Below, piece by piece: positions 61,450-64,000 of a DNA stretch of 64,000 nucleotides (position 1 is its first letter; each line of letters opens with the position of its first letter). This stretch comes from Aureimonas mangrovi (GTDB lineage Bacteria > Pseudomonadota > Alphaproteobacteria > Rhizobiales > Rhizobiaceae). The notes below the pieces were generated by a model. It was given only the letters and a program-made list of their open reading frames with translations. It did no database searches and had not been told where the DNA came from. Position numbers and translations under genes: made by a program. Location: NCBI RefSeq assembly GCF_014058705.1, contig NZ_CP059692.1, positions 2,609,001-2,673,000 of the forward strand. The letters are read 5' to 3'.

Positions 61450-61743
61450 ATGACCGATCAGGTTAGACCCAGAGTGAAGTACGTCATCGGGCCCGATGGG
61501 AGCCCGCTGACGATCGCCGATCTTCCCCCGTCCAACACCCGTCGCTGGGTGATCCGCCGCAAGGCGGAAGTGGTGGCGGCTGTGCGCGGCGGCCTTCTGA
61601 GCCTCGACGAGGCCTGCTCCCGTTATACGCTGACGGTGGAGGAGTTCCTGTCCTGGCAGGTGTCCATCGACCAGCACGGCCTTGCGGGCCTGCGCACGAC
61701 GCAGCTTCAGGAGTACCGCAAGAAGATCGACCTTCACCACTGA
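61450..61743 (+). CDS. sciP: CtrA inhibitor protein SciP (DUF1153)
   Basis: 97-residue small helix-turn-helix protein, DUF1153. In Caulobacter SciP binds CtrA and blocks its transcription activation, especially of flagellar genes, in G1 cells. KYVIGPDGSPLTIADLPP, TRRWVIRRKAEVVAAVRGG and LDEACSRYTLTVEEFLSWQ match the family. The ATG at 61450 gives the normal length. A good terminator follows, so it is monocistronic. A GANTC site (GAATC at 61362-61366) lies about 85 bp upstream. Confidence 0.95.
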   Translation: MTDQVRPRVKYVIGPDGSPLTIADLPPSNTRRWVIRRKAEVVAAVRGGLLSLDEACSRYTLTVEEFLSWQVSIDQHGLAGLRTTQLQEYRKKIDLHH

Positions 61744-62120: not shown

Positions 62121-62480
62121 TCAGGCGGAAGCGGAGCGGCGCTCGTCCATCTGGTCGCGCTGCTCGAGCTTCTCGGCGTGGGCGAGTTCCGCCTCGGCCT
62201 CCTCAAGCGCGATGTTCGCCGCGCTCATCTGGCCGCGAAGGTCCTTCACGGAATCCATGAGGTTGTCGCGGCGCGTGCGGGCAGCCTTGGCGAAGGTCGG
62301 ATAGGCGAAGTGGTTCACGTCGCTGATGCCGGCCTTCTTCTCTTCGCTCGAGATCTGGGCGTCGAGTTCGCTCGCCATGCGCTCGAACTCGCCCATCATC
62401 ATCTGGAGTTGGTCGACCTGGCGGCGCTTCTCGCCCGTCTTGAACTTCATCAGCCTGACAAGACTGTCTCGCTTGCTCAT
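62121..62480 (-). CDS. fliJ: FliJ-like flagellar export chaperone
   Basis: 119 residues, almost entirely coiled coil: SLVRLMKFKTGEKRRQVDQL, QMMMGEFERMASELDAQI and LEEAEAELAHAEKLEQRDQM. This is the fold of FliJ, which joins the FliI ATPase to the export gate. The segment HFAYPTFAKAARTRRDNLMD is typical for rhizobial FliJ encoded beside ctrA. No fliI is in the window. AGAAGGGG precedes the ATG at 62480; a longer frame to 62549 exists. The name rests on helical pattern and context, so some doubt remains. Confidence 0.7.
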   Translation of the reverse strand: MSKRDSLVRLMKFKTGEKRRQVDQLQMMMGEFERMASELDAQISSEEKKAGISDVNHFAYPTFAKAARTRRDNLMDSVKDLRGQMSAANIALEEAEAELAHAEKLEQRDQMDERRSASA

Positions 62481-62864
62481 CGAAGAAGCCCCTTCTGCGG
62501 CCTTGGCTTTGCGCACGAGGTTCGCCTCCAGCGCTGCGGCTTCGGGCAAGGCTCGGCGGCTAAACGCTTAACCGTCTGTTTACGTGCAACGTTAATCCTA
62601 GGGTCGACGACTTAAGGCCGGGTAAATCGCTTCGGGACAAAGCGCGCCATCTCCTTCGCAGAAGGGGTTTGCGTGCCCGAAGGATCGGTCGGGTGGCCGG
62701 AGATGCCGGGGATTTCGCAGCCGTGACACGCTGCCCGTCCCGCTGACGGAATGGTTACGGAAGGCTTCGTTAACCATTCAATGTCACGATCATCGACGGC
62801 TGAGAGACGAACTGTGATCGGCGGCGCGCGAGGGCGCGGGCGGATCGACGGAGAGGGAAACTGG
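62481..62864. promoter_or_regulatory. Divergent fliJ-ctrA promoter region with CtrA-type motifs
   Basis: 384 bp. A TTAA-N7-TTTA (62568-62582) lies 88 bp before the fliJ-like start. A GTTAACCAT (62769-62777), matching the alphaproteobacterial CtrA half-site TTAACCAT, lies 88 bp before the ctrA start. CtrA autoregulation is known in Caulobacter and Brucella, so these are candidate binding sites. I found no GANTC site in this region. Confidence 0.6.
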
Positions 62865-63560
<696 letters not shown>

Positions 63561-63584
63561 CGCGAGGCGCATCCAGAAGATCCG

Positions 63585-63612
63585 AAGGGCCCGCCTCGCG
63601 CGGGCCTTTCTC
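63585..63612 (+). terminator. Terminator after ctrA
   Basis: Stem AAGGGCCCGC / GCGGGCCTTT (63585-63594 with 63600-63609; one G-T pair), 5-nt loop, then CTCG. It lies between the convergent ctrA and receiver-like gene and may serve both. Confidence 0.7.
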
Positions 63613-63615
63613 GTT

Positions 63616-64000
63616 TCAGGCCAGCTCGCGGGTCTTGGCTTCTTCGGCGGGCGCGTAGGCGCGCAGCCAGCCCGTCAGGCTCTCGCGGTCGAAGGGACGG
63701 TAGATGAAGCCGAGCGCGCCCGCGCGCTTGGCGCGCGTCATAAGCCCGAGATTGGCTTCCACCAGGGATGCCAGAACGATCGCGCGCGACGCGCCGGGCT
63801 CCTGGCGCACGCGCCGCACCGCATCGTCCACCGACGCATCCGGAAGCGTTGCCGACACGACGACGATATCCACTGTGCCGGCTTCGGCGATCATGCCGAT
63901 CGCCTGCTCCAGCGTGTCGGCGACCAGCGCGTTGTAGCCCGACAGGGTCAGGATGCGGCTCGCGACCTTGCGCACCACCGCGAACTCGTCGATGACGAGG
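63616..64000 (-). CDS. Receiver-like protein lacking the phosphoacceptor Asp (partial)
   Basis: The C-terminal 128 residues of a gene that starts beyond the right edge. The fold reads as a single response-regulator receiver: LVIDEFAVVRKVASRILTL, then IVVVSATLPDAS where the phosphoacceptor Asp would be (Ser instead), AIVLASLVEA, and GALGFIYRPFDRESL, where the conserved Lys is Arg. Only the first acidic pair (Asp-Glu) is kept. Such pseudo-receivers bind partners without phosphorylation. It converges on ctrA with 55 bp between stops and may belong to the ctrA/chpT neighbourhood. A link to the CtrA pathway is inference. Confidence 0.8.
   Translation of the reverse strand, partial: LVIDEFAVVRKVASRILTLSGYNALVADTLEQAIGMIAEAGTVDIVVVSATLPDASVDDAVRRVRQEPGASRAIVLASLVEANLGLMTRAKRAGALGFIYRPFDRESLTGWLRAYAPAEEAKTRELA

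Follow-up and report, generated by a model that had tools for sequence, protein, structure and literature searches.

A CheY-like receiver lacking its phosphoacceptor aspartate lies between chpT and ctrA in Aureimonas mangrovi

Results

A receiver gene convergent with ctrA

The window, that is, the whole stretch of 64,000 nucleotides of the A. mangrovi contig NZ_CP059692.1 that was analyzed, ends within a small gene that converges with ctrA. The following genes and features lie at this end of the window or directly beyond it.

61450-61743, plus strand: DUF1153 gene (PF06627, 139.6 bits)
62121-62549, minus strand: FliJ-like gene upstream of ctrA (PF02050, 23.7 bits, short of the 28.4 cut-off)
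62865-63560, plus strand: ctrA, the convergent neighbor (NF045991 CtrA, 427 bits, cut-off 350)
63584-63610, no strand: GC-rich hairpin in the gap between the convergent stop codons, a weak candidate for a shared terminator (11-pair stem in the fold)
63616-64011, minus strand: gene for an Asp-less CheY-like pseudo-receiver (open frame, 63616-63999 within the window; Response_reg match)
beyond the window, minus strand: chpT, adjoining the receiver gene (NF046018, 287.9 bits, cut-off 240)

The receiver gene overruns the window edge by 11 bases. Completed from its own genome (L003:6617-7012, minus strand), it starts with ATG and encodes 131 amino acids, and the Pfam Response_reg match (PF00072) spans the whole protein (43.3 bits, cut-off 30.2). 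Among its neighbors, the DUF1153 gene belongs to the SciP family, and no fliI was found among the listed frames around the FliJ-like gene. In all 80 loci scored, chpT was the next neighbor and shared the strand of the receiver gene, and the two genes were still paired in seven of the nine loci where the receiver lies away from ctrA or its contig.

The hairpin between the convergent stops reached a whole-stretch z of only -1.5 and was missing from the list of the terminator scan, and promoter and terminator signals at the locus were no more frequent than in shuffled sequences. Two CtrA sites with one mismatch each were found upstream of ctrA, and no CtrA-type site was found near chpT or the receiver gene in L003. 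A further hairpin, followed by a short run of T, separates chpT from the receiver gene (L003:7124-7147), so that the latter may have its own promoter.

Three active-site residues are replaced within an intact predicted fold

Active-site positions were numbered on Escherichia coli CheY. The original prediction had placed a serine at the phosphoacceptor position and an arginine at that of the conserved lysine, and the alignment bears out both: opposite CheY D12/D13, D57, T87 and K109, the window protein has D/E, S, L and R. The acidic pair (D8/E9) is thus retained, and a third active-site residue is gone besides the aspartate and the lysine, the conserved threonine being replaced by leucine. A misplaced phosphoacceptor can be rejected, since the serine aligns at D57, in the same column as the aspartate of those orthologues that have one. 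By its sequence, the window protein is therefore a pseudo-receiver, or aspartate-less receiver: it belongs to PF00072, and one or more of its five active-site residues are missing.

The remainder of the receiver fold had been expected to be intact, and structure prediction agrees, giving a full receiver with a mean pLDDT of 91.8 and a pTM of 0.85. The closest solved structure to this predicted fold is CheY (5chy, TM 0.81). Two other identities were considered and rejected: the curated model for DivK-type proteins gave only 20.8 bits where 160 are required, and the CpdR model was absent from the 24 model matches.

The substitutions are maintained in Aureimonas

ctrA was present in all 21 Aureimonas genomes; 16 of these have the receiver, each time between ctrA and chpT. 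All 16 orthologues carry both the serine and the arginine, and no relative in the genus has the aspartate together with the lysine. The substitutions are thus conserved in the orthologues next to ctrA, a point on which the original prediction had been staked. At the same time, their codons vary synonymously (TCG or TCC for serine; CGC, CGT, CGG or CGA for arginine). In the 12 closest Aureimonas pairs the dN/dS of the receiver was 0.07 to 0.41, and it reached 0.72 in more distant pairs, where dS is higher. Residues that stay constant while their codons change, together with low dN/dS, point neither to chance nor to decay, and we rejected a pseudogene on these two grounds. The receiver is under selection, weaker than that on chpT, whose dN/dS it exceeds in 11 of the 12 closest pairs, and far weaker than that on ctrA. 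Together with the missing active-site residues, these patterns support the earlier suggestion that selection may have kept the protein as a phosphorylation-independent module. Nine residues are invariant across 17 Asp-less sequences, namely, V84, N87, L88, G89, T92, R93, R96, A97 and G98.

In the five Aureimonas genomes without the gene, chpT stands directly beside ctrA, and whole-genome searches with two alignments returned only matches of at most 57 bits, inside longer frames. These five genomes form one clade (support, 99) and consequently count as one event.

The receiver is a CheY left behind by a chemotaxis cluster

Outside the Rhizobiaceae, the homologue closest to the receiver is the CheY of a chemotaxis cluster that other Alphaproteobacteria have beside ctrA. 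At locus L141, Pfam assigns the gene order chpT, cheA, cheW, cheY, cheB, cheR, ctrA, and the cheA product combines two CheW stretches with a receiver. The same domain make-up is reported for the CheA of chemotaxis class F5 (excerpt of PMC10542144). In 11 of the 20 order-level loci, and in most of the named loci, the homologue has cheA, cheW, cheB and cheR all in its vicinity. None of the four was found beside the receiver in any of the 101 Rhizobiaceae loci scanned, a set that leaves out L273-L326 (54 loci); the only CheB matches there (28 to 39 bits) all fell on receivers. The order-level loci that have the receiver and lack the four che genes are L137, L138, L142 and L144.

The CheY of L141 had as its best match the ctrA/chpT receiver in six of six Asp-bearing Rhizobiaceae genomes, with E values of 1e-25 to 1e-38. 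The diverged receiver of the window genome (G000) was not among the matches of this CheY at 1e-10, and the window copy is tied to the group by its position and by the tree. Among the outgroup CheYs, 15 of 17 have the full DD-D-T-K set and the other two have alanine for threonine. To judge from gene order and homology, the receiver is the orthologue of the CheY of the chpT/ctrA-linked chemotaxis cluster. In an ancestor, ctrA had the cluster chpT-cheA-cheW-cheY-cheB-cheR at its side; the remaining che genes were lost toward the Rhizobiaceae, leaving cheY where it stands now, stranded between chpT and ctrA.

This bears on the idea that the receiver regulates the CtrA/ChpT network, which had been drawn from its place beside ctrA. 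Since the gene owes that place to an old chemotaxis cluster, where it was cheY, the neighborhood alone does not indicate such a regulator; what speaks for the idea is the tie to chpT described above.

At L138 and L142, we also observed homologues beside chpT, with no che genes and with alanine for the switch threonine; this is perhaps a second, independent stranding.

The phospho-switch was lost stepwise

For the family sample, we took ctrA neighborhoods and, where the receiver was missing there, sought it elsewhere in the genome. The counts cover 156 of 160 distinct genomes, with G068, G087, G153 and G174 outside them; G081 has two copies, one of which was omitted from the counts and from the receiver tree. 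These copies lie on two contigs (L054 and L055), each with ctrA, chpT and a receiver with the same active-site residues, which reflects a duplication or an assembly artefact.

Among the 110 carriers outside Aureimonas, the phosphoacceptor residue is aspartate in 92, alanine in nine, serine in four, glutamate in four and threonine in one, and the lysine is kept in all 110. Only 13 of the 110 have all five active-site residues, since 79 of the 92 Asp-bearing receivers no longer have the threonine. The sister genera, including Jiella, Aurantimonas, Mangrovicella and Antarcticirhabdus, all lack the aspartate. With the trait columns excluded, the receiver tree still joins all 37 Asp-less rows in a single clade (support, 98), which indicates one origin, and the loss of the aspartate predates the genus Aureimonas. 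The change from lysine to arginine requires two steps on the receiver tree, as the window species and its closest relative are set apart from the remaining Aureimonas, at weak forks. The gene itself was lost repeatedly, with 13 presence changes on the tree of CtrA plus ChpT.

The switch was thus given up in steps. Without its kinase CheA, it eroded at the threonine first, then at the aspartate, through a single loss in the common ancestor of the Aurantimonadaceae-type genera, then at the lysine in Aureimonas, until the gene itself was lost.

The four glutamate forms were found at L100 (G142), L112 (G080), L335 (G160) and L336 (G034). An aspartate-to-glutamate change often acts as a mimic of the phosphorylated state. 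FlgI is missing from G080.

The receiver tends to occur in flagellated genomes

FlgI served as the flagellar marker, as FliM was too divergent for this use (found in 13 of 21 Aureimonas genomes). The receiver was present in 117 of 126 FlgI-positive genomes (nine without) and in nine of 30 FlgI-negative ones (21 without), an association over 156 genomes with a Fisher P of 2e-12, or 8e-9 when the other Aureimonas members are left out. Within Aureimonas, all 16 carriers and none of the five non-carriers have FlgI, and FlgI was found in 29 of 29 Asp-less carriers. With phylogenetic control on the CtrA plus ChpT tree, the link was not significant: among seven supported independent pairs, 3.2 agree and 0.4 disagree (median P, 0.25). 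The direction of the trend is preserved on the tree, and we treat it as a lead. For 25 of the 29 receiver-less genomes that have ctrA, the ctrA region retrieved still contains chpT. This retention of chpT, set beside the absence of FlgI from 21 of the 30 receiver-less genomes, points to motility rather than to the core phosphorelay.

CheA was found in 15 of the 21 Aureimonas genomes, corresponding to 15 of the 16 carriers and none of the five non-carriers. The exception among the carriers is the window genome, which gave no match to the CheA dimerisation domain even though flgI is present, and the window species may swim without classical chemotaxis. In the single Aureimonas FliM examined (L271), which has a weak Pfam score, the usual CheY-binding peptide, LSQxEIDxLL (motif from an excerpt of PMC5677366), was not visible at the N terminus; we therefore do not claim the motor itself as the target.

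Constraint shifts toward the output face

We compared site entropies between 29 Asp-less and 92 Asp-bearing orthologues. In the Asp-less group, the beta4-alpha4 loop and alpha4 were more conserved (mean change, -0.87 bits) and alpha1 was less conserved (+0.24 bits), and the entropy changes of alpha4 and alpha1 differed (Mann-Whitney P = 0.005). The observed contrast was -1.11, and none of 500 random Asp-bearing subsets fell below -0.33, a rough test, since such subsets do not imitate a single clade. In CheY, alpha4-beta5-alpha5 is the surface for FliM binding, and alpha1 is the helix by which receivers dock kinases and histidine phosphotransfer proteins.

Discussion

A binder that may work without phosphorylation

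The gene is kept by selection, and mostly in flagellates, which suggests that its product would be useful without phosphorylation. We give an even chance to the reading that it is a phosphorylation-independent pseudo-receiver derived from CheY, binding a putative motility partner through its alpha4-beta5-alpha5 face. Such a protein would act as a constitutive binder of a flagellar motility partner, at a dose probably set by its expression next to chpT. A bolder form of this reading, which we consider doubtful, is that the stranded CheY became a permanently "on" binder linking the locus of the CtrA phosphorelay to the flagellar motor or to motor assembly. It would be a phosphorylation-independent CheY of a new kind, in the Aurantimonadaceae, whose output face came under tighter constraint after the aspartate was lost.

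The alternative that survives best, although we think it rather unlikely, is a phosphorelay regulator resembling Osp: the pseudo-receiver would bind CckA, or ChpT, in its unphosphorylated state and block or tune the flow of phosphate to CtrA. Osp of Rhodobacter sphaeroides, which inhibits CckA while unphosphorylated, is a precedent (excerpt of PMC9430884). The pairing with chpT, kept in most loci away from ctrA too, speaks for this alternative. A motility link would fit it too, since CtrA controls flagellar genes in R. sphaeroides. However, most receiver-less genomes with ctrA retain chpT in its region, no CtrA-type site accompanies chpT or the receiver in L003, and upon loss of the aspartate it is alpha1 that became less conserved and alpha4 that became more so.

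We regard it as improbable that constraint on the protein has relaxed and that the stranded CheY is a relic, its role small or fading, that is heading for loss. Such a course would account for the stepwise loss of active-site residues, for the repeated loss of the gene and for a dN/dS that is mostly above that of chpT, but not for values well below 1 in close pairs, for a serine and an arginine that persist through synonymous codon change, or for the nine invariant residues in the V84-G98 region. Finally, despite the retained acidic pair, an ordinary response regulator phosphorylated elsewhere, or a mere misalignment, is scarcely credible given a serine that shares the D57 column with the aspartate of its orthologues.

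Whatever the partner of the proposed constitutive binder, one locus holds a graded series that runs from a canonical CheY with its che genes through an orphan lacking only the switch threonine, an Asp-less form and a Lys-less form to clean gene loss. With the series in one place, the sequence of steps by which a phospho-switch is abandoned becomes open to experiment. The locus also marks an unstudied small protein beside one of the best-known regulators of the Alphaproteobacteria.

Comparison with known systems

In Sinorhizobium meliloti, ctrA is SMc00654, so that SMc00653 is probably the orthologue of the window gene. SMc00653 is annotated as a putative receiver protein (PMC12542648) and its promoter is bound and activated by Clr (PMC10127613); the excerpts of these two papers give no function for it. 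A literature search, whose coverage excluded most subscription journals, returned no paper on the function of the receiver gene, on the chpT-che-ctrA arrangement or on its breakup.

The nearest known relative is the chpT-linked CheY, which has the same fold and the same conserved alpha4-beta5 stretch as the window protein and is orthologous by gene order and best matches. It differs in having cheA, cheW, cheB and cheR at its side and the aspartate, threonine and lysine in its active site, all of which the window receiver lacks. Osp is likewise a single-domain receiver-like protein that works unphosphorylated and is tied to CckA, ChpT, CtrA and motility, but it keeps its aspartate (D51) and lacks the acidic pair, whereas the window protein keeps the D/E pair and lacks the aspartate. 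Moreover, the osp gene stands alone with a CtrA site and is reported from the Rhodobacterales only (excerpt of PMC9430884). The Cle proteins of Caulobacter are CheY-like, independent of the phospho-switch and act on the flagellar motor through FliM (excerpt of PMC5677366). The window protein is not a Cle protein, as it has no arginine-rich c-di-GMP tail with the motif [Y/F]xGP[D/E][R/K]R given in the same source.

More generally, the window protein resembles aspartate-less or pseudo-receivers (PMC12632262), including the rhizobial flagellar regulator Rem (PMC9812332), in having a receiver fold without the phosphorylation chemistry, as these are described in excerpts of the two papers. According to the excerpt of PMC12632262, pseudo-receivers make up about 6% of the bacterial receivers in its set, and the on/off control of the bacterial ones is called a mystery. 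Unlike pseudo-receivers in general, the one described here has its canonical ancestor, its intermediates and its loss all surviving at one locus.
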